NCBI GenBank assembly: GCA_946534585.1
Contig: CAMNCV010000146.1
Location: forward strand, 20,328 to 84,327
Direction: 5' to 3'
DNA length: 64,000 bases
Source: an uncultured Prevotellaceae bacterium
GTDB lineage: Bacteria; Bacteroidota; Bacteroidia; Bacteroidales; Bacteroidaceae
Part shown: one piece after another, positions 22,933 through 64,000 of the stretch
Layout: every line of letters begins with the position of its first letter
How positions within the stretch are numbered: position 1 is the first letter of the stretch
Made by a program: the position numbers and the translations under genes
The notes under the pieces: model-generated
Seen by the model: only the letters and a program-made list of their open reading frames with translations
The model's database searches: none
What the model was told of the DNA's origin: nothing

Positions 22933-22964
22933 CAAAGTTACACTTTTTTATCCAATAAAACAAA
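22933..22964 (-). promoter_or_regulatory. Promoter of the DUF4143 ATPase gene
   Basis: Minus strand TTTG-N20-TAACTTTG. Confidence 0.65.
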
Positions 22965-22966
22965 CT

Positions 22967-23001
22967 GTAATGGATAAAAAAGTTACTTTTTTATCCATTA
23001 C
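22967..23001. promoter_or_regulatory. Perfect 16-bp inverted repeat, operator candidate
   Basis: GTAATGGATAAAAAAG-TTA-CTTTTTTATCCATTAC. Confidence 0.85.
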
Positions 23002-23021
23002 AGCGTTTAAACTGGATATTT

Positions 23022-24872: not shown

Positions 24873-25032
24873 TTTGATTTACTTCTCTGCATAAGAAAAA
24901 CACGGACAAAGATAGCAAAAATACTCTATCTGACAAAATAACCTTGCGGATAATTACATTTTGAGAGAAAAAAAACATAAAACCTCACGTAATATCAATT
25001 TTATTTACTATATTTGCGTAAATTACTGTAGA

Positions 25033-26124
25033 ATGAAACACATAGTACATCTTGTATCAAATAAAGTGTGGGGAGGGGGCGAGCAGTACGTTTATGATTT
25101 ATGCCAGCGTCTCTCTCAAGACGTGTTTCCCGTGACTGTCGTATGCCGTCCTTACAGTGCAATATACGACAAGTTGCGCCATCTCAACGCTACCGTAGTG
25201 CAGATGCCGCTGAAGGGTATCGTTGATATTGTGAGCGTTTGGAGATTAGCAAAGCTTTTATGCCAAGGTGAGTATGTCATACACGCCCATAATTTCAAGG
25301 ATGCCCTGACTGCTGCCATGGCACGGAGGCTCTCTGGCAATAGTAGTCGGGTGAAACTAATCATCACACGTCATCTGGTCAAGAAAGGTAGTAACAACTT
25401 GCTGTACCGTTGGCTGTATGGACAGGTAGATAAAGTGGTTTTCGTATCTGAACTTGCAAGACAGGAGTTTATGCTCAGCCAACCGAATATTGCGTACGAC
25501 AAGACCTGCGTCATACACAACAGCATCGCTTTGCCTGCCGAAAGGAAATGCAGCGAAACCATAATTCTAAGGGAGAAGTATAATCTTAAGGATTCTACTG
25601 CTATAATAATGTATCATGGCAGGCTGGCTGAAGAGAAGGGGATAGAGGTGCTTATTGAGGCTCTCGGCATCATACGCAATGCCGATTTCTTCCTCATCAT
25701 AGCAGGAACTGGGGAGGCTGAATATACGAAACGCTTGCGCGAACTGGCTTTAAGTTGTGGCATTGCTGACAAATTGGATTTCGTAGGGTTCCTGCAAGAG
25801 GTCACACCTTATATACGTCAATGTGACTTCGGGGTATTACCGTCAATAGCCCGAGAGTCTTTCTCACTCGCTTGCCTGGAATATATGTCGCAGGGGAAAT
25901 GCGTCATTGCTTCTGACAACGGCGGACAAAGCGAATATCTGATATCTGAAAAGAATGGCATACTGACACCACCAGGCAACAGTAAGTCGCTCAGCAATAA
26001 AATAAAGCAGTTGATTGAAGACAAGAATATGCGCAACAGTATTGGCGGGCAGGCTCTGAATGACTTCCATACTTCTCTAGATTACAATCACTTCTACAAA
26101 CGTATAAAGGAGCTTTATGTCTGA
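25033..26124 (+). CDS. Glycosyltransferase family 4-type (GT-B)
   Basis: Start at MKHIVHLVSNKVWGGGEQYVYDL (track's TTG start at 24961 unlikely); YHGRLAEEKGIEVLIEAL, ESFSLACLEYMSQGKCVIASDNGGQSEYL. Confidence 0.9.
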   Translation: MKHIVHLVSNKVWGGGEQYVYDLCQRLSQDVFPVTVVCRPYSAIYDKLRHLNATVVQMPLKGIVDIVSVWRLAKLLCQGEYVIHAHNFKDALTAAMARRLSGNSSRVKLIITRHLVKKGSNNLLYRWLYGQVDKVVFVSELARQEFMLSQPNIAYDKTCVIHNSIALPAERKCSETIILREKYNLKDSTAIIMYHGRLAEEKGIEVLIEALGIIRNADFFLIIAGTGEAEYTKRLRELALSCGIADKLDFVGFLQEVTPYIRQCDFGVLPSIARESFSLACLEYMSQGKCVIASDNGGQSEYLISEKNGILTPPGNSKSLSNKIKQLIEDKNMRNSIGGQALNDFHTSLDYNHFYKRIKELYV

Positions 26125-26139
26125 ACGAATGTTTCCTCA

Positions 26140-26970
26140 TCAACTTACGAACTCTCGTTCGTCTTTGTATTGGCGATAGGGCAAGTCGTAGTCTAAATAG
26201 TAGAAGTCGTGCTGTCGTTGATGTTCTACAGATGGTATGGTCATGTAATCACCATATTTATGTCGCAGATAAGCGTCGCTGCGCTCCACTCCCTTTAATT
26301 CTATGCCCTCAAACATAACTGGTACGGGACGCCCTAAGTACTCTTTTGGCATTATGCCTGGAGCGCCGTCGTCGAAGTCGCACACGTAGTCGGCACTGTC
26401 ATACTCACACTCCTTCATCAATGATATAGCCTTTCCCTGTATGTCAGCATTGGTATAGCGGCTTTGTATCAGCCGCGGCAACCACGAACTGATGCCTTTG
26501 CCGTGCTTGTATGGATTGCGATTACAGAAGTATGCTATTTTTTTGTAGTAGCTGTATCGCGACAATTTCATCTTGCCTCTGATACCGTTATCACACACTC
26601 CGTCAATCGGAAACAGGTCTATATATATTCCTCCGAGCGATTTGAAGTCATAACGCTCAATGAGCGTGGTGCTGCTATCAATGATTTTAGCATACGTTCC
26701 CGTAAACTTCGGATTGTATTCAAAGCATGTCAGTTCGTAAGGATAAGGCAACCACTCGGATGCATGCTCCACGAGTATGTCGTAACACGGGCGTGGCATC
26801 GCTATGTCGGCATCGTCATCCCAGGGTATGAAACCGCCGTGTCTCACGGCTCCGAGCATCGTTCCTGCCCACAAGTAATAATCCAGATTGTGTTCTTTAC
26901 AAACGTTGTCAACCGTCTGCAGTATCTTCAGCAATCTCATCTGCAAGTCTCTTATGTCATACTTCGCCAT
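26140..26970 (-). CDS. LicD family phosphotransferase
   Basis: 276 aa; YYLWAGTMLGAVRHGGFIPWDDDADIAMPR. Confidence 0.93.
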   Translation of the reverse strand: MAKYDIRDLQMRLLKILQTVDNVCKEHNLDYYLWAGTMLGAVRHGGFIPWDDDADIAMPRPCYDILVEHASEWLPYPYELTCFEYNPKFTGTYAKIIDSSTTLIERYDFKSLGGIYIDLFPIDGVCDNGIRGKMKLSRYSYYKKIAYFCNRNPYKHGKGISSWLPRLIQSRYTNADIQGKAISLMKECEYDSADYVCDFDDGAPGIMPKEYLGRPVPVMFEGIELKGVERSDAYLRHKYGDYMTIPSVEHQRQHDFYYLDYDLPYRQYKDEREFVS

Positions 26971-26989
26971 AATGCCCTTTAATTTGTTT

Positions 26990-27055
26990 AGGTGGGTTCT
27001 ATTCTTTAGCTTTGTCAGTTTTTCGAATTACGGTGGTAATCAATAGAACCCACCT
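26990..27055. repeat. 14-bp perfect inverted repeat with 38-nt loop
   Basis: AGGTGGGTTCTATT (26990-27003) and AATAGAACCCACCT (27042-27055) between licD-like and GT2 genes. Confidence 0.85.
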
Positions 27056-27844
27056 TTATTTATTTTGTTCTTCCTCGCTTCTAAATCTTTTCTCCATCAC
27101 TTTAGATACCAGCACATACTGATACTGTGCCGCCATCATCGAACGGATAAGTCCTCGCTTGCCCATCAGGAAACTGCCGTCGAGAACATAACTCTTGAAA
27201 AATCTCCAGCATGGACGCCACACCAATGCACACACACCGTAGCGTTTCTTGCTTTTCTTTTCCACTTCGTTGTCTGTGTACTGATTCATCTTTTCCATAT
27301 ACTGATGCATCGTTTCATCCATCAGATGCAGCATACGCACCTTGCGTCCTGCCTTGAGTTTCCTTACCGGACCATTGACTTTGGGGAAGGTATGCACGTA
27401 AGGCGGCCACTCTGTACCCTCGCGTATGAAGAAGCGTAGCTGATAATCATAATGGAAATCGCGTATGAAACGACCCAAGAACATATTCTGACGTGGAATA
27501 TAATAGCCTGCGGCGCAATCGGGCGTTTTGATAATGTCATACAGCTTTTCTCGCAGTTCTGGTGTTATTATCTCGTCAGCATCTACTACAAGCACCCATT
27601 TGCTCGTTGCTGACTGAATAGCGAAGGTGCGTGCAGGTTCTGCACTTTTATGGTCTGCCTTAGGAAACGTAACAATACGACAGCCGTATTGCCGAGCGAT
27701 GTCAAGCGTTTCGTCTGTGCTTTCCATATCACACACCACAACTTCATCAAAACAACTCACTGCCTGCAACACCTTCTCAAGATGCTGTGCGGCATTATAG
27801 GTATTGATTACTACTGATATTTTATTTCCGTCATCCATGTTCAC
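27056..27844 (-). CDS. Glycosyltransferase family 2 (WaaE/KdtX-like)
   Basis: 262 aa; KISVVINTYNAAQHLEKVLQAVSCFDEVVVCDMESTDETLDIA, VDADEIITPEL. Confidence 0.9.
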   Translation of the reverse strand: MNMDDGNKISVVINTYNAAQHLEKVLQAVSCFDEVVVCDMESTDETLDIARQYGCRIVTFPKADHKSAEPARTFAIQSATSKWVLVVDADEIITPELREKLYDIIKTPDCAAGYYIPRQNMFLGRFIRDFHYDYQLRFFIREGTEWPPYVHTFPKVNGPVRKLKAGRKVRMLHLMDETMHQYMEKMNQYTDNEVEKKSKKRYGVCALVWRPCWRFFKSYVLDGSFLMGKRGLIRSMMAAQYQYVLVSKVMEKRFRSEEEQNK

Positions 27845-27868
27845 GACTTCATGAATATTTCATTCCGT

Positions 27869-28798
27869 TCACAATTTACTCATTATACGCTCACGTTCAC
27901 GCTCGTCAGGTATCAGTTTGCAGAAGCCTTCCCAGTCTCGCTTCCATCGGCGATGGCTCCAGAGCCAGTAGGCGGGATGCTCATTTATCGCAGCTTCGAG
28001 CAACTGATAGTATCGCTGTGTCAATGCAAATTTCTCTTCTCCACGCGCTGCATCACACAGTTTCACCATCGTTGCCACGTAGTAACCGCGTCGAGGCCGC
28101 TTCATGTCCATATAGAACACTGCCGTATCAAACAACTTGGCTATGCGTTCCGTTCCCGTATAAGTAGGTGTCTTCTGATTTAAGAACATCGGCCAATAGT
28201 GCATGTCGAGATAGCCTGGAGCCTGATCTGATATGTATCCCACGAGGTTCGTCTGCCCATCTGCCACCCAATGGCGTATCACCTTCAGCGTGTCATTCAT
28301 ACGAATGGAGATACTCCCGAACCGACCGCGTATCTTCAGGAAGAAACGGTTCATGGCTTTGTTTTCCAACTCATGGTATATCTGCCCGCATTTGTATTGT
28401 GGCAGATGCATGCCGAAACTGCTCACCCACTCCCAGTTACAGTAGTGGCCCATATATACTGACACGTTTTTGCCTTGCTCCGTAAGTCGGCACACCTCGT
28501 CAAGACCCTCAAAACGCATTCGTCTGCGCATCTCCTGCTCGCTTATCGATGTCAGTTTTAGCGTCTCCACGATATAGTCACAGAACCAATGGTAGAACTC
28601 TCTCTCTATTTTGAGACGTTCTTTTTCATCCTTATGCGGAAAGGAATTCCTCAGGTTCGTACGCACTACCGACGCCCTGTAGTGTAACATCTTATATATT
28701 ATGATGTAGAAGAAGTCGGATATGACATACAGCGCTCTCATTGGCAACAATGATACCAAGTAAGCGTTTACGTATATTATGTAATACAATACGTTCAT
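27869..28798 (-). CDS. Lipid A biosynthesis acyltransferase (LpxL/HtrB family)
   Basis: 309 aa; GHYCNWEWVSSFG motif, DQAPGYLDMHYWPMFLNQ, YWLWSHRRWK. Confidence 0.9.
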   Translation of the reverse strand: MNVLYYIIYVNAYLVSLLPMRALYVISDFFYIIIYKMLHYRASVVRTNLRNSFPHKDEKERLKIEREFYHWFCDYIVETLKLTSISEQEMRRRMRFEGLDEVCRLTEQGKNVSVYMGHYCNWEWVSSFGMHLPQYKCGQIYHELENKAMNRFFLKIRGRFGSISIRMNDTLKVIRHWVADGQTNLVGYISDQAPGYLDMHYWPMFLNQKTPTYTGTERIAKLFDTAVFYMDMKRPRRGYYVATMVKLCDAARGEEKFALTQRYYQLLEAAINEHPAYWLWSHRRWKRDWEGFCKLIPDERERERIMSKL

Positions 28799-28815
28799 AT
28801 TGTTTTTTTTACTTT

Positions 28816-30651
28816 TTACAGCTGCTGCATATCATGCAGTTTTTTGTAGTAGCCACCTTCGGCTATGAGTTGGTCGTGCTGTCCATGCTCTACGATGCGT
28901 CCCTCGTGCAATACGTATATCTCGTCGGCATTGCGGATGGTTGACAGACGATGGGCTATGGCTACCGTCGTGCGACTCTTCATCAGTCGCTCCAAGGCTT
29001 CCTGAACGAGATGTTCTGACTCTGTATCAAGCGCCGAAGTGGCTTCGTCAAGTATCAATATCGGGGGGTTCTTGAGTATGGCACGGGCTATGCTTATGCG
29101 TTGGCGCTGACCCCCTGACAGGCGGCCGCCACGGTCACCTATCATCGTGTCGTATCCTTTCTCCGTCTGCATGATGAAGTCATGGGCGTTGGCTATCTTC
29201 GCAGCCTCTATCACCTGCTCCATCGTGGCATTCTCTACACCGAAGGTTATATTGTTGAAGAATGTGTCGTTGAAGAGTATTGCCTCCTGATTTACATTGC
29301 CTATGAGTGAGCGCAGGTCGGCTATTCCTACCTCGCGGATGTCTTTTCCGTCTATAAGTATGCGTCCGCTGGTCACATCGTGATAGCGAGGTATCAGGTC
29401 AACGAGTGTTGATTTGCCTGAGCCTGACTGTCCTACAAGGGCTATCGTGCGGCCTTTCTCTATGCAAAGGTTGATGTCTGTTAGCACTTCCCTACCCTCT
29501 TCATAATGGAAACCCACATTGCGGAGTTCTACCTTGTCGAGGAACTCGGTCAATTCTTGTGGCTTCGGCAATTCCTTTATGGGGTTTTCGGCTTTGAGTA
29601 TGAAGTCTATACGATCCATGGATGCCAGTCCGAGGGGTATCTGATACAAGGCTTTTACAAATTCCTTCAGTGGGTTGATGACGCTGTAGAGTATCACCAT
29701 GTAGAAGATAAACGTTGAGGCATCCACCAGATTGGAGCCCGTGAGTATCAGCCAACCGCCGAATGTGAGCACTATTACGATTATCACCGTGCCGAGGAAC
29801 TCTGACATTGGGTGTGCCAGCGACTGACGTATGGTCACCGCACTCACTGCTTTACGGTAACGGCTGTTGACGTCCTCAAAGCGGTCGGCCATCTTCCTTT
29901 CTGCTATGAAGGCTTTTATTATACGCAGACCGCCGAGGGTTTCGTCAAGTTGCGAGAGCAGGTCGCCCCACAAGGTCTGTGCCGTGGTACTCTGTGCCTT
30001 GAGACGTTTGCTCACCTGGCCCATGATTATACCGGCAAATGGTGCCACGACGATGACAAAGATGGTCAGTTCCCAACTCACGAATATCATGGTGGAGAAG
30101 CACACCACGATTGCTATCGGATGGCGAATGAGCAGGTCAACGGAGCTCGTCAGTGAATTTTCTACCTGCTGCACGTCTGCACTCATACGGGCTACGATGT
30201 CGCCTCTACGTTCGGCAGAGAAGAATGCGAGCGGTAATGAAAGCACCTTGCGATACACCTCCATGCGTATATCTTTCACTATGCCCGTGCGCAGCGGCAC
30301 CATCACCGACAAGGAGCCAAAATAGCCCAGCGTCTTCAGTGCGGTCATTACTACTAATCCTATGCCCATCAAGCACAGGGTATAGAATGCACCGTGCTGT
30401 CCCATCAGTTCCTGCACGTAGGCATAGCCGTTGTTCACAAGCAGGTCTTTGTCGATTGACGACCACGTCCACTCCTTATAGTGATACACTTTCTGGTCTA
30501 TCTGAAACAGTATGTTGAGTATTGGTATAAGCACCACAAATGAGAACACATTCATCACCTGCGAATACAGGTTCAGCAGCACTGACCATACGAGATATAT
30601 CTTGTACGGACTGAGATAGCGGCGCATTATCTGGAAAAACTGCTTTATCAT
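28816..30651 (-). CDS. ABC transporter ATP-binding/permease protein (MsbA-like)
   Basis: 611 aa; LVGQSGSGKSTLVDLIPRYHD, RLSGGQRQRISIARAIL, ILDEATSALD. Confidence 0.92.
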   Translation of the reverse strand: MIKQFFQIMRRYLSPYKIYLVWSVLLNLYSQVMNVFSFVVLIPILNILFQIDQKVYHYKEWTWSSIDKDLLVNNGYAYVQELMGQHGAFYTLCLMGIGLVVMTALKTLGYFGSLSVMVPLRTGIVKDIRMEVYRKVLSLPLAFFSAERRGDIVARMSADVQQVENSLTSSVDLLIRHPIAIVVCFSTMIFVSWELTIFVIVVAPFAGIIMGQVSKRLKAQSTTAQTLWGDLLSQLDETLGGLRIIKAFIAERKMADRFEDVNSRYRKAVSAVTIRQSLAHPMSEFLGTVIIVIVLTFGGWLILTGSNLVDASTFIFYMVILYSVINPLKEFVKALYQIPLGLASMDRIDFILKAENPIKELPKPQELTEFLDKVELRNVGFHYEEGREVLTDINLCIEKGRTIALVGQSGSGKSTLVDLIPRYHDVTSGRILIDGKDIREVGIADLRSLIGNVNQEAILFNDTFFNNITFGVENATMEQVIEAAKIANAHDFIMQTEKGYDTMIGDRGGRLSGGQRQRISIARAILKNPPILILDEATSALDTESEHLVQEALERLMKSRTTVAIAHRLSTIRNADEIYVLHEGRIVEHGQHDQLIAEGGYYKKLHDMQQL

Positions 30652-49830: not shown

Positions 49831-49913
49831 TGTTTTAACTAAATTATTCTTTCTTTTAACTTTTTTTTACAATATAGTTATTTCAAATCAATAAAGGTAG
49901 GTTCTATAAAAAA

Positions 49914-49952
49914 CAAAAGCTATCATACCAGAATTGGATATGATAGCTTTTG
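49914..49952 (-). terminator. Terminator of the pectinesterase-like giant gene
   Basis: Perfect 14-bp stem CAAAAGCTATCATA / TATGATAGCTTTTG, followed on minus strand by TTTTTT. Confidence 0.75.
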
Positions 49953-50045
49953 CAGTGTAATAAGATAGTTATTGCGAAGTAATCGCTATGCTTTTGCGAG
50001 GTAATCGCTATGCTTTTGCAGTGTAATCGCTATGCTTTTGCGAGG
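49936..50045. repeat. Tandem array of 5 x 22 bp (TAATCGCTATGCTTTTGCGAGG)
   Basis: GGATATGATAGCTTTTGCAGTG / TAATAAGATAGTTATTGCGAAG / TAATCGCTATGCTTTTGCGAGG / TAATCGCTATGCTTTTGCAGTG / TAATCGCTATGCTTTTGCGAGG, exact 22-bp period; the first two are degenerate. Confidence 0.9.
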
Positions 50046-50084
50046 TAATCAGGCAGCGATTAGAGTGTACAGAAAATCAACACC

Positions 50085-53000
50085 TTACTCATAGAGTTGC
50101 TTCTGACCTCCGATGATGTAAATCATACCCTTGCGCATCTGGTCAGGATCCACTGGTTTGCCCGAGAGGTCAAAGACTGCATCAACGTCATCAGTATCTT
50201 CCTTGACACCGCTGACCGTTGTAGCATCTTCATAGAACTCTTCTTCGTCAACAATCTCAGTGAACTGTAATCCCTTGGCACCGAGCGTGATGCCGGCTGC
50301 CTCAAGAGTAGAGGTCTGCAGGTAAGCCTTGCGTGCAGGTATGCTGCTTCCAACGAACTTATAGAATCCCACTCCCGGATTGATGGCAGGTTTGTATGCC
50401 AGCGTATAGACATTGAGTGTACCTACGGTAACTGCATGATTCTCGGAGTTGCCATCAAGCAGCGAGTATTTCTCTTCGCTGTCGCCTTGAATAACCGGAC
50501 GCACGGTATTGTAGGTGCCACGGAAATAGTAGGTACCAGGAGTAGCATACAGGATATAGCCACGTTTGCCCCTCAATCCTGTGGCGCCTGTTATTTTCTT
50601 CAGTCCAAGGGTAGAGCCGTTAAGTGCCACAGCAGCATATACCGTCAGTCCATCGACATCAGAGAATGTCGCGTTCTCAGGCAGGCAGACCGTACTCCAT
50701 CCCTTTCCAGGCTCAGGACCTACCTGTTTCACCTCAACAGCGTAGGTACCGAGAGGTTCGTAGGTTACTATTTCAGAAGCGTCACCCAATCCTCCGCGCT
50801 CATTGGCAGCACGAATGACGAACCTGCGACCGGCCTGTTCCTCACCAGGGTTAATATGGTTATAAGTAGCCATTGTATAGAAGAGCGTGTCGCCTGTTTC
50901 TTCATCGATACGGAAGATGAAGTAGCAGAGAGCCTTCTGTTTAGCAGTCCATGTGATGATGGTAGAGCCATCGGAGTTGGTACTATTCTCCGGCTGAATT
51001 CCAGCCATAGACACCTGCTCGGTATAGACCGTTGGGTCATAGGCCTCGTCACCGCCAAGGACATTATGCAGTGTATATTCGGCAGCCTGCTCAGCGGTGA
51101 GGATACAGTCATCAGAACCTGCGGCAGGTGTAGCATTACGCAAGGTGCGACCGGTCAAGTCGGCAACCGTGCTATCAGCATTCATAGAGCCATATTCATG
51201 CATACGACAGAGGAGGTTCTTTGACATGACACCATATCCCACGGATTGCGGCATGCTTTGATAAGTAGCATAGAGGAATGTCTGCGATGGCGAACCCTGC
51301 CATGTACGTCCGATAGTATAATTACCATTCTGTGCGTTATGAGCAGCAACAGACTCGCATTTTATTACCGCTTTATTGAATACAAATCCCCATTTCTCAT
51401 CGAAGGTCTTGTCAGCGCCGACATAATTCACTGTAGTAAGAGCCGACTGATGACTTGAGGCTACGATGTTATTGCCTGTTGCGCGCTTACGGAGTACTAA
51501 GACAGGATTCTCCCACCATGACTCACCGCTGCCGCAGATGAAATCGACGGTACCCCATACCTGACAGTTCTCATAGTAACAGTAAGTATGGAAGAAGCCC
51601 GGTGACGTACCTTGAGTAGAACTCGTATTAGAGGCACTGGCATAAGTATCCTGATATCCCTTCATCGTAACATTCTTCCAGATAGAATGAATACCGCGAT
51701 CGTAAACGGCAACCGACTGTCCGCCAGGGTTTGCATCGCCACGCTCTACCTGGAAATCAGAGTAGCGGTTCTCGACTGTGAAGTCCTGGAAATAGCAATC
51801 CTTTTGCGCCGTGCTGACGCCAAGGGTATTGGTCCAGCTGATGCCATAGATATATGGGTCGCTATATATCAGTGTGCCATCCTGACTCTGACCGACGAGA
51901 GATACGTTATTACGCTTTATCCAAGTCTGGCCGTTATAGAAATTATTCACAACGGCAGAGACACCATCCTTGTTATCTTTATAGGTACCATTATATTTCT
52001 CTGCACCCTTCATGCAGTATTCTCCATCCGGCACGAAGATATAGAAGCGTTCTGAACCGCCATCGGCATTAGCCAATGCCAGACCTTCGTCAAGAGTACC
52101 GTGAGGCACATTGAGAGAATCCAGATTAGCAATCACATCATCTTCTACGATTTGGATGCGTCGGCCCGCGGTTTGAGTGGCACAGTCAAAATTCTGATTA
52201 TGTGTTACGACGAAATCGAACTTACGCGGAGACACTGAAGCAGAAGAACTCCTTGTGGAGAATGCCACGACAAGGTCTTGATTGTAAGCCTCGCCGTAAG
52301 TATCCTTGAGAGTACCGGCAGGAATAGTAAGAGAATAATCCTTACCATACTCCAAATCCCAATACGTAAACCTCAGAGTTTTATTGCTGACCACGGCCTT
52401 CAACTGCTGACCTAATCCTGTAGTAGCGGCGAGCGTAGCATCGGCAGCCACGTGATTGAGAGCTATGGCTATAACGCCCTTTGTGCCGACTTCCGTCGCA
52501 GAGCCGTCCATGGCGTTTTTGCCATCGACTGTAATCGATGTCACCTCTGGTGCTACGGTGCCTGTGACGCGGAAAGACACGCTGTATGTAGCTACTGTCA
52601 CGCCGCCGGCTGTCTGAAGCAGGATTTTAGCAACTGGGTTAGATGACGTAGCCTGGGTAATCACGCCCTTACCGCCGTTGGAAGCGCTAATGTTCAGAAC
52701 CGGCATAGAGTTGCCACTGTATCTTGCCTCGAACTCCACATTCTCAAGTGCTTTGGCAGTTTTGAGCGTAGTAAGCTGTGTCTCAGTTACAGAAGTGCCA
52801 TCAATGGTAACGCCGGTAAGCTCTGGCTGTCCGCCAATCGGATTGTAAGTAACCTTAACATATGTCATACGTGTTGCAGCTCCGAAGTCAATTTCCTCCA
52901 TAGCTTTTTCACCCGTATAGACTACGCTGACTGTTTTTCCGCCATCAGACGAGGTCGTATAGTTTGTAGTACCGGCAATCGAAACGTTCTTCACCGCACC

Positions 53001-56000
53001 ATTGTCAGAGTGCAGTTCGATGACGCAGTTTGAAGATACCGGCAACGTGAACACCGCATTCTTGTTTGCCGTACAGCTGCTCTCAGCTGTTGTGCTATTA
53101 GGAGAAGTGTTCGTTACACTACCCTTCGAACCATCGATGCGCAGCGGCAGGTCGATTTTTGTGCCTCCGATGTTGAGTTGGTCAACGATCAAACCGGCAG
53201 CAGACGAATAGTATATAGCCGTAGCACCGCGTGCAGCACCCAACGGCCATTCTATCGTTGTAGCCTCAGTGACCTGTCCGCGTGCTACAGTATTAGCCAC
53301 GAAATGCGGTGAGAGAAGCAGGTCGCCATCAACGGTGTTAGCTTCATTGACCAGATACTCCTGACCGAAGTCGTAGTGATTGCCCTTAATATCGGTATAA
53401 TAATCAAGGGTATATCCTTCGAGGTATAGATGCTGGTTATGCTCAGGCATTACGAACTTCTCATCCCACTCCACATGCTGCTGATATGGAGGCAGGCCGT
53501 CAGCCTGTCCACCGGCTGAGAAATTGACATAGTAACTCTTCTTCTTACCATAGACAGCCTGCAGCGTATGGTAATCATTGAGTTGCAGCGTTATGCTCTC
53601 ATCACTTACAGCACTATAGGTAACGGTACCGCCAGTAGAGAATGAGCCAGTGCCGTTCCAGTCCGTATGCAGTCGCGTGTTGCTGCCGGCCTTCTGATAA
53701 GAGCCATCAGGATATATACGTGTGCCGTTGCCCTCCTGCCAATACATCAACTCATAGTACTTGTTGCGATTAGCGTTAATCGTAACTGACGTACCATTGA
53801 TGAATGCCGTGCCTCCATCAGTGGTTTTCTGTCCGCCTTCTGTAGATAATGCCACGGTACCCATACCGGTGTTGTTAGAACTGCTATAGAGCGTCTTACG
53901 CACGGCTGTAGGCAGAGCCACCTCGATATACTGATAGTACGCATAATCGTCACCTATATTCAGCGTGGCTGTAATATCCGTTGACGTCACAGTCCAGTAA
54001 TACAGATAAGCATTATCGCTGTTGCGTTTCAGGTTCTCATCATATATATTATCAGGCATCATACCATTAAGGCGCGTGCCCTTGAGCGAAGACGCATCGT
54101 CGTTAATAGGAGCATAGGTAGCAAGGGTTACTACTGCGCCATAGCCGGAAGGTATTGTAATCTTCGTGCCTTCCTTTATATATGCCCATGTATCTATATC
54201 GGTATTTTCGACTATCGCCCCACTCGTACTGGTGTCTATTGTCAAGGCCACGTCTATATTCTCGGTTTGGTTCTCCACCTCGCCTGTAGCGTCATTACGC
54301 ACACCCTGACCACTGATTTCCGTTTTCGTAACCAGAGACAAGTCAGATATGCCGGAGATGTTATCCATACGCTGTGCTCCATAGCCCGTACGGAAATCCC
54401 AATGTATCGTAACATCTTCCGTCACCTTTTCAATTTTATCGACCTCACAGTTATACTTAAACACTGGTATAAGCGTAACAGTCTGGCCTTCAGACGCAAA
54501 GAATTCACTTGAACCAAGTTCATAGTGCCTATGCGTATTCTTATCCTCCCAGTAGAGAAGTGTATAGTTTGGTACGTGAAGCGTATGATTAGAAGGCACG
54601 TTGATAGCAGTTGCTACGATACGCTCCGGGAATACGGAATAGTTAGGTATTCCCATCGTAACGGCATATTTCACATACTCCTCTACGCTATTGATACTAC
54701 AGTTATAGAGACCTTCATACAGAGACTTTGTTGTCTGCCATGTGTCGGCATATTTCTCTGTATATTCAACGCCATCACTTCCATACCAGCGTGCGCCCAT
54801 TACATCATAGACGACTGTTCCCTGAGGACCTGCCTCAAAGTGGGCGTAATACACATTGCTCGTGCTATTTATAGTAACGGTATATGTACGTTCTGAGGAG
54901 ACAGGGTTCTCGCCTGTTTTATCTGTGCTCCATCCCGTAAAGCCATAGCCCGGCTTGGCTACTGCAGTCATGGTCACTTCGGTGCCTGCGGTGTAGTTGT
55001 TACCCTGTACCACAGGCGAGAACTCAAGAATTCCATAAGTATCCGGCCATGAGTGGGCATTGAGTTTATAGGTCTTGAAGTGTGTCTGTTTTTCTGAAAC
55101 CTCAGACGTTGTCTTCTGCGTATTGGCAGCCACTGCCTTAATGACACAGTTTCCACTCACATGTATGCCCTGGTCTATACCATTGCCATCAAGATTTGGC
55201 ACATAGAGCAGTCCGGTCATTTCGTCGGGTTCTGTACCATCAAGCGTATAATAGAACTTGTCGTCAGATGAGCCGTTTGTAAGGACGAATGATGCTTTGT
55301 CATTGTTAAGCGTTATCTCCGGAGCATCGGCATCTGGAGTAAACGTAATCTTGTATATACGCAGATACTGAGGACCGAAGTTAATGCTGTCAGTGAGTTC
55401 CTCTCCTTCTTCGTCGGCATATCTTCCCTGCAACAGTACACCACCTGCTGCTACACGAACCGTCGCCGTAACCTTATCCGCGCTATTCGAACGGAACTCG
55501 GTATTAACGCCATTGACGTTAAGATAGCGATAAGGGCGCTGTGATGAGCCGGTATTGGAGAATTCTACCTCAAGCATACCTGAGACAGTATTATTGAAGT
55601 ACATCTGATTACCCTGGAAACACTGGCCACCGCCTTGAACGACATACTGGCCTGCACCTGCAAGATACTGCAAACCGCCGTAATAGCCTTCGGCATCAGT
55701 CAGTCCTGCCGGTATCGAAACTCCTGACGGTATTTCTACGTCACTGAGTTTCATATAGCCCTCTTTCTGTGTAAACAGGACGTCTGACGATGCGCCATTC
55801 CAATCCCACTTTCGATAGGTATCGACAGGTTCAACCGCAGTACCCGTATATGCTACGGTGCGTCCGTAAGGTAAGCTTATCGTGGCCGTATGCTCCGCGG
55901 CTGTAAATGTTATGGTCAGTGTTCGCTCTGCACTCACTGCCGTTCCAGTATATGTAACAGTAAATTGCTGGGCGATAGTTCCATCGCTCTCTATCTGGAA

Positions 56001-59000
56001 TACCTGCGGAGAGATGCTTATATTTGACGAGGCACCATTTACGCTGACGCTACAGTCACCATAAGAAGGGAATTCTGTGCCTGTCAGTGCAATAAGAGAG
56101 GTTGCGCTCTTGACCTTGTCAGAAGTAATCACAAGCGACGAAGGCTCTGCGACTACTGATATCTGAGCATTACTCGTTGAAACAGTGAATGTCTGCTCTG
56201 AGGCATGATAAACACCATTAGCCTCCTGTGAAGCAGTGACTGTCACCACTCCATTGTCAGTTACGGTTATCGTGCCGTCAGAAGAAACCGTTGCAACATT
56301 GGTATTACTTGAAGTCCATGTGATTGGGGCTTTGCTGAAGTTCACATAGTCATTACCTTCTTCCAAAGTATAGGTCTCTCCAGGTTTCACAACATAATTG
56401 CTGTTGTTTATCGTAAAGCCTGCCATGTCGCAGTCGATGTAATACACGTGAGAGCCAAAGCCACTATTCTGTATGCTTATCTCTGTTATGTCCTGTCCCA
56501 TTGTTGCAGCAGCAGGCACTTCAAAGGTACATTCGGTCAAGGTTGTAGGCATCTCTGTTCCTATAAGCTGCCAATTACCTTGCGCATCCTTGTACTTGAC
56601 TATGACACCACGACCGTCAGAGAGTTGGTGTGACTCCACACCTATCTTTATCGTAGAGCCCGCCTTCACCGCTGGTATATACATATAGGTATCGTCGCCT
56701 GCCAGCCATATATACTGGTTACCGCTGTAGGACGAGAGTGCTGTGCCGAGGTCGTAAGCCAAAGCCAACTTGTCAAATCCTGTTGCTACGGTAAAGCGAA
56801 TAGGATAGGTCTCTGCTATGTTCACGCCGTTGGCGGTGAGGTACTCATAGTTGTATGAGGCAGTGTTGGCTGTGAAGTATGCACCTGAAGTAATTCCCGT
56901 GCCATCGTTTTTCTCATCAAGCGTCCAGCGGTTGTCTGCCGCGAGGTTTGCCTTAGTATCACTGCTCCAGTCTGTGAAGTCAAAGGTATGGGCTGAGAGT
57001 TTCAGCGTCGTAATAGTAGAGGTGATGCTACCATAGCTGTTGGTTGCCACAAGGTAGTAATATACTCCCTCGGCTGGTTCTGAAATCGTATAAGCCGGAG
57101 AGTTAGCTCCTGCTATAGCCGTAGCGCCATCAGTCGAAGCCTCCGTATTGCTATACCACTGATATGATGTCGCACCGCTAACTCCGACATTCAGTGTTTT
57201 GCTTACTCCCGTGCGAGCATTATACCGTGAAGCGAGGTCTGACGTTATCTCAGGTATAGGCAAACGCGGATACGTCAGCGTAAGGCCACTGTAGTAGCCG
57301 CCACCACCGACGGTAATGGTAACCTCGGAAGCACGACCCACGTAGGTATATACAAGCGAAGAACCATACAATGTCATTGAGGTGTTGATACTGCCATCGC
57401 TGATGGTTGCTGAAGGATTACTATATCCATCAGTAAGTTCTATTGTCATACCGCTGACAGCACGGAATGTGAACTTGGTGCCGTCATTAACCTGTGCGAG
57501 ATTATCCGAACGACTAGAGTTATTGAACTTACCACCATTGGTATTGACGATGAGCGGCATGTCCTGTGTCTCGCCCTCTACATCTGACTGTGTGACGAGA
57601 TACTGGTCACCTGAGTTCTCCCAAGCTACTTTCGGCGCACCGTTTTTGGGGCCGAACTCCCATCTTACGGCAGTGTTCTTCGTCAGTGCATTGAGGCTTT
57701 TTGTGTTGGCGGTGAAAACAGGAGTAAACTCCACATCTTCCGTAACAGTATAGCTGGCACCGAGCGCATAGGTATCAGTGCCGTCATTCCAACCACTGAG
57801 GGTATAGCCCTCCTTATAAGCCAAGCGGTTCGGAGAGTAAGGCAGGGTGACAGTGGTATTCTTCTCCACTTCGCTTCCAGAAGGGAGCACGCCCTTTACT
57901 TCTGCATCGTCGGTAGAGAAGGAGTAAATGGCTGTAGAAGCCACGTTGACAGTTATGGTCTTACTCAAGGCTGCCATACCATCATGGGCTGCCAACGTAA
58001 TAGTGATGGTGGCACTGCCATTACCTACTGTGGTGATAACGCCGGAAGCACTTACGGTTGCCACACTCTCATCAGAGCTGACGAATGTAAGTGCGGCTGT
58101 GCTCGTGGTGCTGTAATCTACACCTGAGGTCAGAGCATAAGTCACTCCATTCTCAGTGAAGCGCAGATTATCTTTAAGGAGCGTGAAGTCGTTGTATTCA
58201 CAATCCACATAATATACATGGGAGCCTTTTACCGCACACTGTACTCTGACATCTGTATAATCACTGCCCAATGATGATGCCGAAGGTACGACAAATGCAT
58301 GGTCAGCAAACTCACCCGTAGTGAAGGTCTCGTAAGTGTCATCACTAAAGGTGACGGTCACACCACGAGCTTCCTCTATCTTGTGTGACTCAACGCCCAT
58401 ATATATTGTTGAGCCTGCCCTGACATTAGGAATGGTGAAATATGTATTAGTATTCAGCAGCCAAAGATACTGCGAAGACGCATACGTACCGAGCTTAGTT
58501 GACGGAAGATTATAAATCAGGCCTATGCCATGAGCACCGCCATTGAACGAAAGCGGATATGTCTCACGTACATTGGCGCTGCCGGCAGTAAGCACCGTGC
58601 CGTTCCAAGTCACGTCATTATAGTAGCCCTTGTCGCCGTCATTACCCGCCTTAGTCATATCTGCGCTCTCATGGGTTGACCATATCTGGGTATCTGACGC
58701 GCAACTGCCGAGTGTAGTTGATGACCAAGAAGTAAAGTCGAAGGTGTGTCCGCCTACACTGACACAAGTTATCACCGACTGTGTTTCACCAGCATTATTG
58801 ATGGCCTTGACATAATAGTATGAGCCATCGACTGGCGAAGCTATAGTGTATGACGATGAGTTGGCACTTTCTATAGCTACGGGATTGGTGCCATTGGCAT
58901 CATCGCAGGTGTACCACTGGTATGATATGACATTGGAGGCTGCAATGCTGAGGGTCTTAGCTCGTCCGCTTACCGCCGTGCTTGCAGTACTGAGGTCTGT

Positions 59001-59858
59001 GGTGATGTCTGGAGGGGAAGCCTCTACTGTCACTGTGCAGACGTCAGAGGTGACTGTTCCCTCACTGTTTGTCACTACGCAATAGTAATACTCCGTACCA
59101 TCAGTAGTCGGGATATACGTATATGTAGAGTCGGTAGCTCCGCTGATAAGAGTGCCTCCACTATTTGATGCTATAGTATTGCTGTACCACTGCAAACTGG
59201 TAAACGACGGAACGGAGAAGATATCAGCCGCAACAGATGTGCTTCTATTCACTTTTGTATTAACGGATGATGGCACAGACACTGTGGGTATAGATGCAGT
59301 GGCATAGTTCACAGTAACAGTCATGTTTACTTGCTGCGCTGCTACATTGTCAAACTTGAAAGCTATAGACGAGGCAGCTACAAATCCCGTAATTTCTATT
59401 GTCACCGCATCGCCATTTTTATCATTCAGGCTATATGTTGTATTTCCCAACACATTTGTGGAGCTTCCATCAACATACACTCCGACCAACTGCGTAGCGT
59501 TCGCTGAATTACTGACGGCATCAAGCGTAACCGATGTGACATAGTAACCACTGTTTACAAGCATGTAGAAACCCGTGCCGCTATCTACACCATAACTTGC
59601 CAACGACTGGTTCGTACGCATCTTGATGTTCTTTGAGGCATTGCCGCCACCCGCGACACAGGTACCTGGGACCATACATGATGTTCCGCTGACATCAACA
59701 TCTTTGTCTGATGCTCTCCCCAGCGTTTCCGATTCAGCCAACGCATCTATGCTCCCCACAAACATGGAAAGCATGGTCACTATGGCAACAGTCATAATGC
59801 GAGAGAGACGCTGAAGCTTTGCGCCACAACTCTCATGAGTATATCTTGTCATATTCAT
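50085..59858 (-). CDS. Multidomain secreted protein (3257 aa): Ig-like/BIG2/InlB-type repeats plus a C-terminal pectinesterase (CE8) domain
   Basis: WYSN...YYYCVVTNSEG Ig-like repeats, SSDESVATVSASGVITTVGNGSATITIT (BIG2), GYTLSGWNDGTDTYALGASYTVTEDVEFTPVF (InlB-type); CE8 motifs GYQDTYAS, GTVDFICGSG, TIGRTWQGSP; C-term FDLSGKPVDPDQMRKGMIYIIGGQKQLYE. Confidence 0.88.
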   Translation of the reverse strand: MNMTRYTHESCGAKLQRLSRIMTVAIVTMLSMFVGSIDALAESETLGRASDKDVDVSGTSCMVPGTCVAGGGNASKNIKMRTNQSLASYGVDSGTGFYMLVNSGYYVTSVTLDAVSNSANATQLVGVYVDGSSTNVLGNTTYSLNDKNGDAVTIEITGFVAASSIAFKFDNVAAQQVNMTVTVNYATASIPTVSVPSSVNTKVNRSTSVAADIFSVPSFTSLQWYSNTIASNSGGTLISGATDSTYTYIPTTDGTEYYYCVVTNSEGTVTSDVCTVTVEASPPDITTDLSTASTAVSGRAKTLSIAASNVISYQWYTCDDANGTNPVAIESANSSSYTIASPVDGSYYYVKAINNAGETQSVITCVSVGGHTFDFTSWSSTTLGSCASDTQIWSTHESADMTKAGNDGDKGYYNDVTWNGTVLTAGSANVRETYPLSFNGGAHGIGLIYNLPSTKLGTYASSQYLWLLNTNTYFTIPNVRAGSTIYMGVESHKIEEARGVTVTFSDDTYETFTTGEFADHAFVVPSASSLGSDYTDVRVQCAVKGSHVYYVDCEYNDFTLLKDNLRFTENGVTYALTSGVDYSTTSTAALTFVSSDESVATVSASGVITTVGNGSATITITLAAHDGMAALSKTITVNVASTAIYSFSTDDAEVKGVLPSGSEVEKNTTVTLPYSPNRLAYKEGYTLSGWNDGTDTYALGASYTVTEDVEFTPVFTANTKSLNALTKNTAVRWEFGPKNGAPKVAWENSGDQYLVTQSDVEGETQDMPLIVNTNGGKFNNSSRSDNLAQVNDGTKFTFRAVSGMTIELTDGYSNPSATISDGSINTSMTLYGSSLVYTYVGRASEVTITVGGGGYYSGLTLTYPRLPIPEITSDLASRYNARTGVSKTLNVGVSGATSYQWYSNTEASTDGATAIAGANSPAYTISEPAEGVYYYLVATNSYGSITSTITTLKLSAHTFDFTDWSSDTKANLAADNRWTLDEKNDGTGITSGAYFTANTASYNYEYLTANGVNIAETYPIRFTVATGFDKLALAYDLGTALSSYSGNQYIWLAGDDTYMYIPAVKAGSTIKIGVESHQLSDGRGVIVKYKDAQGNWQLIGTEMPTTLTECTFEVPAAATMGQDITEISIQNSGFGSHVYYIDCDMAGFTINNSNYVVKPGETYTLEEGNDYVNFSKAPITWTSSNTNVATVSSDGTITVTDNGVVTVTASQEANGVYHASEQTFTVSTSNAQISVVAEPSSLVITSDKVKSATSLIALTGTEFPSYGDCSVSVNGASSNISISPQVFQIESDGTIAQQFTVTYTGTAVSAERTLTITFTAAEHTATISLPYGRTVAYTGTAVEPVDTYRKWDWNGASSDVLFTQKEGYMKLSDVEIPSGVSIPAGLTDAEGYYGGLQYLAGAGQYVVQGGGQCFQGNQMYFNNTVSGMLEVEFSNTGSSQRPYRYLNVNGVNTEFRSNSADKVTATVRVAAGGVLLQGRYADEEGEELTDSINFGPQYLRIYKITFTPDADAPEITLNNDKASFVLTNGSSDDKFYYTLDGTEPDEMTGLLYVPNLDGNGIDQGIHVSGNCVIKAVAANTQKTTSEVSEKQTHFKTYKLNAHSWPDTYGILEFSPVVQGNNYTAGTEVTMTAVAKPGYGFTGWSTDKTGENPVSSERTYTVTINSTSNVYYAHFEAGPQGTVVYDVMGARWYGSDGVEYTEKYADTWQTTKSLYEGLYNCSINSVEEYVKYAVTMGIPNYSVFPERIVATAINVPSNHTLHVPNYTLLYWEDKNTHRHYELGSSEFFASEGQTVTLIPVFKYNCEVDKIEKVTEDVTIHWDFRTGYGAQRMDNISGISDLSLVTKTEISGQGVRNDATGEVENQTENIDVALTIDTSTSGAIVENTDIDTWAYIKEGTKITIPSGYGAVVTLATYAPINDDASSLKGTRLNGMMPDNIYDENLKRNSDNAYLYYWTVTSTDITATLNIGDDYAYYQYIEVALPTAVRKTLYSSSNNTGMGTVALSTEGGQKTTDGGTAFINGTSVTINANRNKYYELMYWQEGNGTRIYPDGSYQKAGSNTRLHTDWNGTGSFSTGGTVTYSAVSDESITLQLNDYHTLQAVYGKKKSYYVNFSAGGQADGLPPYQQHVEWDEKFVMPEHNQHLYLEGYTLDYYTDIKGNHYDFGQEYLVNEANTVDGDLLLSPHFVANTVARGQVTEATTIEWPLGAARGATAIYYSSAAGLIVDQLNIGGTKIDLPLRIDGSKGSVTNTSPNSTTAESSCTANKNAVFTLPVSSNCVIELHSDNGAVKNVSIAGTTNYTTSSDGGKTVSVVYTGEKAMEEIDFGAATRMTYVKVTYNPIGGQPELTGVTIDGTSVTETQLTTLKTAKALENVEFEARYSGNSMPVLNISASNGGKGVITQATSSNPVAKILLQTAGGVTVATYSVSFRVTGTVAPEVTSITVDGKNAMDGSATEVGTKGVIAIALNHVAADATLAATTGLGQQLKAVVSNKTLRFTYWDLEYGKDYSLTIPAGTLKDTYGEAYNQDLVVAFSTRSSSASVSPRKFDFVVTHNQNFDCATQTAGRRIQIVEDDVIANLDSLNVPHGTLDEGLALANADGGSERFYIFVPDGEYCMKGAEKYNGTYKDNKDGVSAVVNNFYNGQTWIKRNNVSLVGQSQDGTLIYSDPYIYGISWTNTLGVSTAQKDCYFQDFTVENRYSDFQVERGDANPGGQSVAVYDRGIHSIWKNVTMKGYQDTYASASNTSSTQGTSPGFFHTYCYYENCQVWGTVDFICGSGESWWENPVLVLRKRATGNNIVASSHQSALTTVNYVGADKTFDEKWGFVFNKAVIKCESVAAHNAQNGNYTIGRTWQGSPSQTFLYATYQSMPQSVGYGVMSKNLLCRMHEYGSMNADSTVADLTGRTLRNATPAAGSDDCILTAEQAAEYTLHNVLGGDEAYDPTVYTEQVSMAGIQPENSTNSDGSTIITWTAKQKALCYFIFRIDEETGDTLFYTMATYNHINPGEEQAGRRFVIRAANERGGLGDASEIVTYEPLGTYAVEVKQVGPEPGKGWSTVCLPENATFSDVDGLTVYAAVALNGSTLGLKKITGATGLRGKRGYILYATPGTYYFRGTYNTVRPVIQGDSEEKYSLLDGNSENHAVTVGTLNVYTLAYKPAINPGVGFYKFVGSSIPARKAYLQTSTLEAAGITLGAKGLQFTEIVDEEEFYEDATTVSGVKEDTDDVDAVFDLSGKPVDPDQMRKGMIYIIGGQKQLYE

Positions 59859-60208: not shown

Positions 60209-63200
60209 TTACTCATCATACATGACTTTCTTCCCGCCGATGATGTAAATCATACCCTTACGCATCTGGTCTGGGTCAACAGGTTTGCCAGAGAGGTCAT
60301 AGACGGTGGCATCGTCATCCGTATCTTCTTTGACACCGCTGACTGCAGTAGGATCTTCATAGAACTCCTCTTCTTCTTCGCCAAAGAATGAGAACTGCAA
60401 TCCCTTAGCACCAAGATGTATGCCGGCAGCCTCAAGAGTTGAGGTCTGCAGGTAAGCCTTGCGGGCAGGTATGCGGCTACCTACGAACTTGTAGAAGCCT
60501 ACCCCAGTGCTGTCGATAGAGCGCTTGTATGCCAGCGTGTAGATATTGAGTGTACCTACTGTGACATCGTGATCCTCAGGGTTACCGTCAAGCAGTGAAT
60601 ACTTACCATTAGTTCCTGCTACCTGCTTCACAGCTTTATAGGTACCATGGAAATAGTATGTACCTGGAGTAGCATAGATAATATATCCACGACAAGCCTT
60701 CAGTCCATCATCGCCACTTACCTGCTTTAATCTGAGAGTATTATTGTTTTCTATCCTCAAAGCAGTATAGACTGTAATATCTTTGTTATCATCTTTGTTA
60801 TCGCTGAATGTTACATCCTTTGGCAGACAGACTGTGCTCCAGCCCTTTTCAGGATCAGGACCTACCTGCTTCACCTCAACAGCGTAAGTCTCAAGAGGCT
60901 CATAGGTTACTATTTCAGAAGCGTCACCCAATCCTCCGCGCTCATTGGCAGCACGAATGACAAACCTGCGACCAGCCTGTTTCTCGCCAGGATTTATATG
61001 GTTATAAGTAGCCATTGTATAGAATACTGTATCGCCAGTTTCTTCGTCAATACGGAAGATGAAGTAGCAGAGAGCGTTCTTTTTCTCGGTCCATGTGATG
61101 ATGGTATTTCCATTATCATCAGTGTTATTCTTCGGCTCAACTCCAGCCATAGACACCTGCTCCGTATAAACCGTTGGGTCGTAAGCGTTGTCACCTCCAA
61201 GCACATTGTGCCGAGTGTACTGAGCAGCCTCTTCAGAAGTCAGGATACAATCGTCAGAACCTGCAGCAGATGTCAATGCTTTCAGAGAACGAGAACTCAA
61301 GTCAAGCAACGTTCCATCTGCTCCCTTGGAACCATACTCATGCATGCGCAATACTTCACCAGTACCCTGATAATTATCCCAACCTTCTGGCTTAGGAAGA
61401 ACTTCCATCGTCGTATACAGATAGGTCATTGCAGGACTGTTACGAACCTTACTACCAAGACCGTACCAGTTATTGCATTTATCATACGCCCTTGTGTTTT
61501 CTGCCTTTATAGTACCATTATTCAACACGAATCCCCAAGGTGTGGTACTTGCATGCATGAGAAGACCGATACAAGGGCTGCTGACATAACGCATCACCAC
61601 GGTCGGATTTTCCCACCAACACTGGCCTGATCCATACATAAAGTATCTTGTTCCCCACAATGCACAGTCTTCATAATATCCATTATTATTAGCATTAGAA
61701 GAGTAGTACGTAGCTTCGTGAGCCTTCATCGTAACTTGCTTTGCAATGGTGTGAATACCATTATCATAGAAAGCACCTGCACCACCGCCATTCTTATTTA
61801 TATAAGCCTTAGGACTACCAGTCATAAAGTCACAGAAACGGTCTTCAATGGTCAAATCCTGGAAATAAGTGTCAGTGACATTATCCTTTATATACATCGT
61901 AGCATTATTATCATATCCTAATACATACGGATCATTATATATAATAGTTCCTGTCTGACTCTGACCGACAACAGAGATATTGTTAGCCTCAAGCATAGTA
62001 CGTCCTGTGTAGTATTTACCACCATTGTCATAGTCTGACATACTCAATGATATAACTCCTGCACTTGTACCGTTCTTTCCGTATACAGCGGTAGTATTTT
62101 TTTCATCCAATTTCGTTGTAGGTATCTTAGTGAACGAGCCTGCAGAATTACCACGCATAGAGTATTCGCCATTTGGTACGAAGATGCGGAAGCGAGAAGC
62201 GCCACCATTAGCATTTGCGAGGTCAGTACCCTCTTCAAGCGTACCGTGATGTATATGGAGAGAGTCGAGGTTTGCAATAACATCCTCCGGAACCACAAGC
62301 ACGGTATCACTGGCTGTCTGTGTCTCGCTATTCCATACAAACCTCTTGGTAACGACGAAGTCAAAATACTTCGGTTCAACAGAGGCTACAGCCTCAGTAG
62401 TGAATGTAACCTTGATGTCAGAAGCATATTTTACTCCATATACATCAGTAAAGGTGTTTGCTGGAATAGTAAGCGTATATGGCTTATTGTTGCTCAGTCG
62501 CCAGTATGAGAGCGTAATGGTACGCCCTGACACACGAGAAGTGAGCGTCTGTCCGAGTTCAGAAGACTCCACATCCGTTGCTTTCATAGCATGGTCGAAC
62601 GTGAGCGTAACCGTACCCGTCACTGCCTGCTTACCTTCTACAGTGCCTCCTGCTACCTCCGTTGCATTTACTTTTGTAGTGGTCAGCGTTGGTGCTGTCT
62701 TACCTGTCAGGTTGAACAGAATGGTATATGTAGCCTTAACCACACCAGCACTATTCTTCAGCAGTATCAAAGCCTCAGGATTAGCAGCCGTAGCAGCGGT
62801 CACTACAACAGTGCCATTGTCTGCCGTAGCAGTGACTTCTGGCATCGCGTCATTAGCACTATATACAGAAGAAGCAGCATAGTCATAAGACAGTTCAAGC
62901 TCATTCTTAAGCGTAGTCAACTCATCTGCACTAATCGATGTCGTTCCAATCTTCACACCAGAAAGGACTGCATTATCAGCAAGCGGCTTATACGTCACTG
63001 ATACGTTCTGTATCTTTGCGGCCTTCTTAAACACTATATTTTGCGTAGAAGCATCGCCTGTATAAGGTGTACTGATATTGTTACCAATCAATGTCGTAGC
63101 ACCTGCTATATCTACATCACCAGCTATGAAGTCAACGCCCGCAATATTCTGCACCGCTATCACGCAATTACTTGTAGTAGGAACAGATAATGTAGCATCA

Positions 63201-64000
63201 GCACTCACGGCACACTCACCATTTGTGGTAACCACGCTGGCTTTATTTACTTTGGCTATATCCAGTTTCACATCAATAGTATTGTTCTTATCCAGTGCTA
63301 CCTGTGTCACGACAATACCAGCAGCAGAGGTATAGTTGACTGTTGGCAATGATGCAAGCTTCCATGTAGCAGTAACTCCTTCGGAAGCCTGAACCTCGGT
63401 AAGTGCCATTTCATTGACAGTGAATACTGGTATGAGGGTCATATCACGCGTAAGAGGATATGAGTGTCCGAACTCATAATGCACGTCAGGCACATCAATC
63501 TCAGTGTAGTACTTCAGAGTGTGACCGGCATAATACAAGTTGTAGTTGTAATCTGGCAATACGAACCTTTCCGTTGCCTCCAGTTTCTGCTGAGGCAGGA
63601 TTGCGCCTTCAGTTGTAATATTGTCTGGAATACGGAAACTTACCGTATATGAAGTCTTTTCCTTGAATACAGCCTGAAGCTTGAACGACTTACCGATAAT
63701 GAATGACAAGGTATAGCAAGAGTCTTCCTCATTTGTCACTGTCTTATATTCGATTCCGGCAAGTGTCACACCGTTGCCAAAGTCAGAAACAGTCTCGCTA
63801 CCAACACGCTGATACTTTCCGTTAGGATAAATCTTGTTGCCAGAGCCGTCAATCCAATAATCCAGTTCATTGTATCTCTTACGCTTAGCAGTAAGCATTA
63901 CAGTAACACCGTTATCGAACGAATATCCCAGTTCTTTCTTCTCGGCATTCTTATCGTCGGTGACAGTACCCATGTTTACATTGTTAGAAGAGTAATCAAG
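60209..64000 (-). CDS. Pectinesterase-fold paralogue of the 50085-59858 protein, predicted catalytically inactive (5' end beyond window)
   Basis: C-terminal part closely similar to the upstream neighbour; the frame stays open from 63973 to 64000 (LDYSSNNVNMGTV, compare YSSSNNTGMGTV in the paralogue), so the Met at 63973 is internal. Confidence 0.88.
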   Translation of the reverse strand, partial: LDYSSNNVNMGTVTDDKNAEKKELGYSFDNGVTVMLTAKRKRYNELDYWIDGSGNKIYPNGKYQRVGSETVSDFGNGVTLAGIEYKTVTNEEDSCYTLSFIIGKSFKLQAVFKEKTSYTVSFRIPDNITTEGAILPQQKLEATERFVLPDYNYNLYYAGHTLKYYTEIDVPDVHYEFGHSYPLTRDMTLIPVFTVNEMALTEVQASEGVTATWKLASLPTVNYTSAAGIVVTQVALDKNNTIDVKLDIAKVNKASVVTTNGECAVSADATLSVPTTSNCVIAVQNIAGVDFIAGDVDIAGATTLIGNNISTPYTGDASTQNIVFKKAAKIQNVSVTYKPLADNAVLSGVKIGTTSISADELTTLKNELELSYDYAASSVYSANDAMPEVTATADNGTVVVTAATAANPEALILLKNSAGVVKATYTILFNLTGKTAPTLTTTKVNATEVAGGTVEGKQAVTGTVTLTFDHAMKATDVESSELGQTLTSRVSGRTITLSYWRLSNNKPYTLTIPANTFTDVYGVKYASDIKVTFTTEAVASVEPKYFDFVVTKRFVWNSETQTASDTVLVVPEDVIANLDSLHIHHGTLEEGTDLANANGGASRFRIFVPNGEYSMRGNSAGSFTKIPTTKLDEKNTTAVYGKNGTSAGVISLSMSDYDNGGKYYTGRTMLEANNISVVGQSQTGTIIYNDPYVLGYDNNATMYIKDNVTDTYFQDLTIEDRFCDFMTGSPKAYINKNGGGAGAFYDNGIHTIAKQVTMKAHEATYYSSNANNNGYYEDCALWGTRYFMYGSGQCWWENPTVVMRYVSSPCIGLLMHASTTPWGFVLNNGTIKAENTRAYDKCNNWYGLGSKVRNSPAMTYLYTTMEVLPKPEGWDNYQGTGEVLRMHEYGSKGADGTLLDLSSRSLKALTSAAGSDDCILTSEEAAQYTRHNVLGGDNAYDPTVYTEQVSMAGVEPKNNTDDNGNTIITWTEKKNALCYFIFRIDEETGDTVFYTMATYNHINPGEKQAGRRFVIRAANERGGLGDASEIVTYEPLETYAVEVKQVGPDPEKGWSTVCLPKDVTFSDNKDDNKDITVYTALRIENNNTLRLKQVSGDDGLKACRGYIIYATPGTYYFHGTYKAVKQVAGTNGKYSLLDGNPEDHDVTVGTLNIYTLAYKRSIDSTGVGFYKFVGSRIPARKAYLQTSTLEAAGIHLGAKGLQFSFFGEEEEEFYEDPTAVSGVKEDTDDDATVYDLSGKPVDPDQMRKGMIYIIGGKKVMYDE

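Follow-up and report, generated by a model that had tools for sequence, protein, structure and literature searches.

A pectinesterase-like domain stripped of its CE8 catalytic residues and kept beside an intact sibling in giant proteins of rumen-type Prevotella

The stretch of DNA analysed here (64,000 nucleotides, hereafter the window) belongs to a rumen-type Prevotella and covers positions 20328-84327 of contig C146, which is 84327 bases long, so that the contig ends at the window edge. Its last open reading frame codes for a giant protein, P0001, which carries a degenerate CE8 (pectinesterase-like) domain and will be called the pseudo giant. Since the contig stops at the last base of the window, this frame is cut at its 5' end. 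The complete protein is probably of about 3.7 kaa: in three other genomes the orthologue is complete, its frame staying open for 3667, 3771 and 3818 codons, and the starts look signal-peptide-like by eye. The features of the locus are the following, the numbering of PemA being used for the catalytic positions.

60209..64000, minus strand: open reading frame of the pseudo-CE8 giant (P0001), 1263 codons plus stop, 5' end open
61181..62383, minus strand: pseudo-CE8 (pectinesterase-like) domain, residues 540-940 of P0001
61700..61723, minus strand: AHEATYYS, with E762-A763 in place of PemA Q177-D178
61625..61654, minus strand: GTRYFMYGSG, with Y786 in place of the PemA nucleophile D199
61433..61462, minus strand: GLGSKVRNSP, with S850 and V852 in place of PemA R267 and W269
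60212..61180, minus strand: post-CE8 region and C-terminal tail (DLSGKPVDPDQMRKGMIYIIGG) of the pseudo giant
50085..59858, minus strand: intact-CE8 giant P0002, 3257 aa, with Ig-like and InlB-type repeats
51039..52238, minus strand: intact CE8 domain of P0002, with the complete Q/Q/D/D/R/W set
51659-51636, 51554-51525 and 51317-51297, minus strand: intact motifs GYQDTYAS, GTVDFICGSG and TIGRTWQ of P0002
30847..49728, minus strand: third cassette gene, a secreted giant of 6293 aa
2329-10080, minus strand: SprA-type T9SS translocon protein (SprA_N, E 9.3e-230)

The 6293-aa giant matched no Pfam family, and no PDB entry matched it convincingly; it starts with a GTGTSSDPYIINSA-type stretch and ends, by eye, in a T9SS-like tail. 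The gap between it and the intact giant holds short direct repeats (CGCAAAAGCATAGCGATTAC, at about 49900-50080) and a terminator-like hairpin (49953-49913). Elsewhere in the window, RuvA and a GH43 enzyme are found among the neighbours of the SprA-type gene, and a cell-envelope gene group (glycosyltransferases, LicD, a sulfatase-fold protein, a lipid A acyltransferase and an ABC transporter) occupies 20749-30651. With regard to export, the tail of the pseudo giant resembles a T9SS sorting domain by eye only and matched no Pfam or NCBIfam model of this kind. The pseudo giant is probably a surface protein exported via T9SS.

When scanned in isolation, the pseudo-CE8 domain of the window scored 27.1 bits against PF01095, for a cut-off of 27. 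Of the five members of the pseudo clade described below, one matched the family clearly (43 bits), two scored within 0.1 bit of the cut-off and two gave no match, and whole-protein Pfam and NCBIfam scans of the pseudo giant missed its CE8 domain. A phmmer search of the PDB retrieved 2nsp (E 2.5e-4), which was also the top fold match (E 3.9e-12, TM 0.62/0.73) of the AlphaFold2 model of the domain (pLDDT 82, pTM 0.87). At E <= 0.001, this predicted structure had 15 PDB matches, comprising 14 pectin methylesterase chains and E. coli YbhC. The intact domain was modelled with similar scores (pLDDT 84, pTM 0.88), its top match being 1qjv (E 1.6e-13). By alignment and by model, the pseudo domain is a CE8 homologue with a predicted right-handed beta-helix of the CE8 type.

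The sequence-only reading of this DNA had reported three degenerate motifs in P0001 and three intact ones in its neighbour, and all six were located where it had placed them. At the PemA positions Q153, Q177, D178, D199, R267 and W269, the neighbour's intact domain has Q/Q/D/D/R/W, whereas the pseudo domain of the window has G/E/A/Y/S/V. Both Asp are thus gone, the acid/base D178 being replaced by A763 and the nucleophile D199 by Y786, and the other replacements are Q153 to G740, Q177 to E762, R267 to S850 and W269 to V852. The changes at Q153 and W269 are two active-site losses beyond those first noticed, but position 153 is also variable (R/V) in many CE8 domains that keep the triad. The PemA numbering was verified on the PDB chain returned by the sequence search, which has Ala at 178 and is described as a D178A mutant.

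A different alignment that restores the catalytic residues would have overturned this assignment; none does. The residues immediately around all three motif sites align gap-free, and a profile built only from 104 canonical-triad domains aligned the pseudo domain nearly end to end (E 1.8e-83) with the same placement. One other 'QD' is present in the pseudo domain (YFQDLT, residue 714), but it aligns with a QD of the intact copy and is therefore not a displaced active site. Assembly or sequencing error as the cause of the motif loss is ruled out by the same losses in independent genomes. From the residues it has lost, the domain is almost certainly devoid of methylesterase activity. Since it is a CE8 homologue that falls outside the catalytic definition of a CE8 enzyme, we refer to it as a CE8-fold pseudoenzyme.

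Some relative of the pseudo domain was detected at E <= 0.001 in 224 of 299 genomes of the genus, and nearly all relatives examined were ordinary CE8 domains. Close members were found in a goat abomasum MAG (RGIG1502, here G001, at the same place as locus L057), in Tb.RUG.131 (L055) and in UBA3627 (L056). A fourth comes from the same genome bin as the window, where it lies on contig C16 (L041, G000:C16:1-6833); its protein is nearer to that of UBA3627 than to that of the window, and C16 may be a contaminant in the bin. Searches of 398 genus and 399 family genomes at E <= 1e-40, samples that overlap the earlier ones and cover the genus in part, revealed no additional species with a pseudo-CE8; the only new strong genome, G428, has its matches placed exactly as they are in the UBA3627 genome. 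A contig scan with a single pseudo-CE8 protein as query returned no matches, and an alignment-based scan recovered three members.

The fetched loci yielded 112 distinct CE8-like domains, a set picked by similarity to the pseudo domain and not a random CE8 sample, of which 104 keep D178, D199 and R267. Their six-position strings are RQDDRW (74), QQDDRW (15), VQDDRW (14) and AQDDRW (1). All six active-site residues are absent in each of the five pseudo members, namely those of the window (GEAYSV), Tb.RUG.131 (GEGWSM), UBA3627 (GEGYSI), G001 (GDFYTL) and C16 (GDGYTI), which share the replacement pattern G, E/D, A/G/F, Y/W, S/T, V/M/L/I. Among the remaining exceptions, two domains are partly degenerate and lack the pseudo-clade signature, L137 (G450:C46; QEYDRG, with SYEYTYNS / GAVDM / GRPGN) and L076 (VQNDHW, with RQNTYYS / GALDI / LAHGW), and L006 is an odd fragment. 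Several Prevotella giants (L045, L046, L047, L048 and L049) carry two CE8 domains in one protein.

In a maximum-likelihood tree, the five pseudo domains form one clade (support 100/100), the five intact cassette siblings (94/90) are placed beside it, and five intact outgroup domains fall outside. Since the pseudo clade has intact domains to either side, one catalytic loss, on the branch leading to that clade, explains the tree most simply. Gene order is also shared: the pseudo giant, the intact giant and a further giant follow one another on one strand in the window, in G001, in G358 (Tb.RUG.131) and in G359 (UBA3627), the G358 cassette having two intact giants. The third giant counts 6293 aa in the window, 6304 codons in G001 and 6248 codons in G358, and the G359 copy is cut by the fetched region. 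These results give strong support to the pairing of a pseudo-pectinesterase with an intact paralogue, proposed from the window alone, and widen it to a conserved clade and a cassette in four genomes. The genes flanking the cassette in the other genomes gave no pectin-related lead.

Within the pseudo clade, synonymous sites are saturated (pS 0.65-0.74) and replacement sites are not (pN 0.29-0.38); pN in the intact clade is lower (0.22-0.30). Since the frames are open and replacement sites change far less than the saturated synonymous ones, the pseudo domain is under purifying selection, and a maintained function of some kind is very likely. Several related species retain the dead domain next to a copy that looks functional, which identifies it as a maintained pseudoenzyme and not a decaying gene. 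The sequence-only reading had left the choice between a binding-only, a regulatory or an altered-activity protein; the results show that the domain has been kept under selection, and no evidence for regulation was found.

The region after the CE8 domain shows a different pattern of identities. In the window, the tails of the pseudo giant and its sibling are 76% identical, and over the whole post-CE8 region siblings of the same genome share 59-76% identity, versus 41-56% between pseudo orthologues (60% between C16 and G359). For the CE8 domain itself, same-genome siblings share 41-48% and pseudo orthologues 45-57%; the window's pseudo-CE8 is 48% identical to its sibling and 45-51% to its orthologues. 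The tails thus appear to be homogenised within each genome while the CE8 domains stay apart, and we infer gene conversion as the mechanism.

In the intact clade, the catalytic columns have a conservation of 0.93, and the columns within four residues of them are more conserved than those elsewhere (0.74 vs 0.61, resampling p 0.026). In the pseudo clade, the same flanks do not differ from the remainder (0.53 vs 0.51, p 0.41), while a value of 0.47 is obtained at the columns that were once catalytic. As residues near the old site show no excess of conservation, the claim that a specific ligand has been retained in the cleft is weakened. Further, the pectin-contact positions of PemA (109/110, 153, 177, 198, 219, 230, 267 and 269, a list taken from PMC10530356) are mostly replaced in the pseudo domain. 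With these contacts mostly replaced and the cleft under no extra constraint, pectin binding cannot be assumed and is weakly supported; binding of some glycan is plausible.

The clade nevertheless has hallmarks of its own, namely His at PemA position 176, an acid at 177, an aromatic residue at 199, G740, Q793 and R853, and an additional insert before the catalytic coils. At the old active site, G740, A760, H761, the acid at 762 and R853 are clade-specific invariants; H761, within AHEATYYS, stands where Tyr was, and R853 immediately follows the old Trp269 position, where PmeC2 has the contact residue Arg244 (PMC10530356). Taken together, the cleft evidence points to re-use of the fold more than to a pectin lectin that was retained, new catalysis being a minor possibility.

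We therefore propose, with slightly better than even confidence, a dead CE8 of single origin that selection maintains in a non-catalytic role, for binding or adhesion, as one module of a giant exported protein. Its history would begin with one duplication of a giant CE8 surface protein, within one Prevotella-group lineage; the duplicate would then have lost the whole catalytic set, and the dead copy would afterwards have been kept as a folded beta-helix module. Beside its catalytic sibling, this module would act in binding or adhesion, its cleft no longer carrying the pectin contacts of PemA.

Alternatively, the beta-helix might be a pure scaffold that helps a giant adhesin to fold or spaces its parts, with a former cleft that binds nothing. 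In favour of this, the cleft has lost its extra constraint although the fold persists, and Ig-like and InlB-type repeats occur in the giants that carry the domain. Against it stand the clade-specific invariants at the old site and the CE8 domain itself, which remains distinct from that of the sibling although the tail does not; this reading is unlikely. It is more doubtful still that the cleft has been adapted to a different reaction or ester via His761, Glu/Asp762, Tyr/Trp786 and Arg853. All five members have these residues and the intact siblings lack them, and migrated catalytic residues are known in some pseudoenzymes (PMC10211241). However, conservation near the old site does not exceed that elsewhere in the domain, opposite to the intact clade, residue 763 varies freely (A/G/F), and the cleft holds no new pair of invariant acids. 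Conversion into a site that binds or processes a different glycan is given the same low probability. If true, it would add an activity of a new class to the pectin-esterase fold.

As for the pseudo protein binding and modulating the adjacent intact CE8 protein, the two genes are neighbours in all four cassettes, but tandem duplication also leaves adjacency and no interface evidence was found. Promoter-like TAnnTTTG sites of the Bacteroidetes type occur in all nine gaps examined, with 13 seen for about 3 expected (a rough estimate from base composition), and the cassette genes may therefore be separate transcription units; scans for sigma-70 promoters and terminators gave no excess over the shuffled level. 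Co-transcription is thus not required, and a regulatory partnership is improbable. The idea of a pseudogene-like relic losing its function, which could draw on the longer branches and higher pN/pS of the pseudo copies relative to their intact siblings, has a negligible probability and is rejected on the basis of the frames of 3.7-3.8 kaa open in three other genomes, the conserved gene order, the single clade with its common residue signature, and replacement sites held back against saturated synonymous ones.

The preferred reading, a maintained non-catalytic module, has practical consequences. Annotation by family name alone could label the pseudo giant a pectinesterase, and for rumen metagenomes this is a warning against equating each CE8 match with methanol-releasing activity. 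A dead CE8 clade with an active-looking sibling in every cassette seen also offers a clean natural comparison for the passage from a polysaccharide esterase to a non-catalytic surface module. In the open-access literature searched, no paper on an inactive CE8 was found.

Compared with known systems, the pseudo domain is closest to the CE8 pectin methylesterases (PF01095), and in particular to PemA of Dickeya/Erwinia (1qjv, 2nsp), with which it shares homology over the domain and a predicted beta-helix, and which supplies its top PDB matches in both the fold and the sequence comparison. It differs from PemA in that the catalytic and transition-state residues are all replaced, as are most sugar contacts. 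The D178A mutant of PemA (2nsp), solved with a bound hexasaccharide, has Ala at the position of A763, but the mutant chain retains D199, R267 and the cleft contacts, which the natural pseudo domain lacks. Nearer at hand, the CE8 domain of P0002 and its cassette orthologues occupy the same position in the protein, with a related tail and 41-48% identity within a genome; they keep Q177, D178, D199, R267 and W269 with raised conservation around them, unlike the pseudo domain, and lack its extra insert. The rumen Butyrivibrio enzymes Pme8A, PmeC2 and PmeC5 (PMC10530356, PMC12109409) share the CE8 fold and the habitat and, in contrast to the pseudo domain, retain the Asp/Asp/Arg triad, described as 'strictly conserved' in Pme8A and PmeC2 (PMC10530356) and listed for PmeC5 (PMC12109409). 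The pseudo domain would work, if at all, like other maintained pseudoenzymes (PMC10211241).
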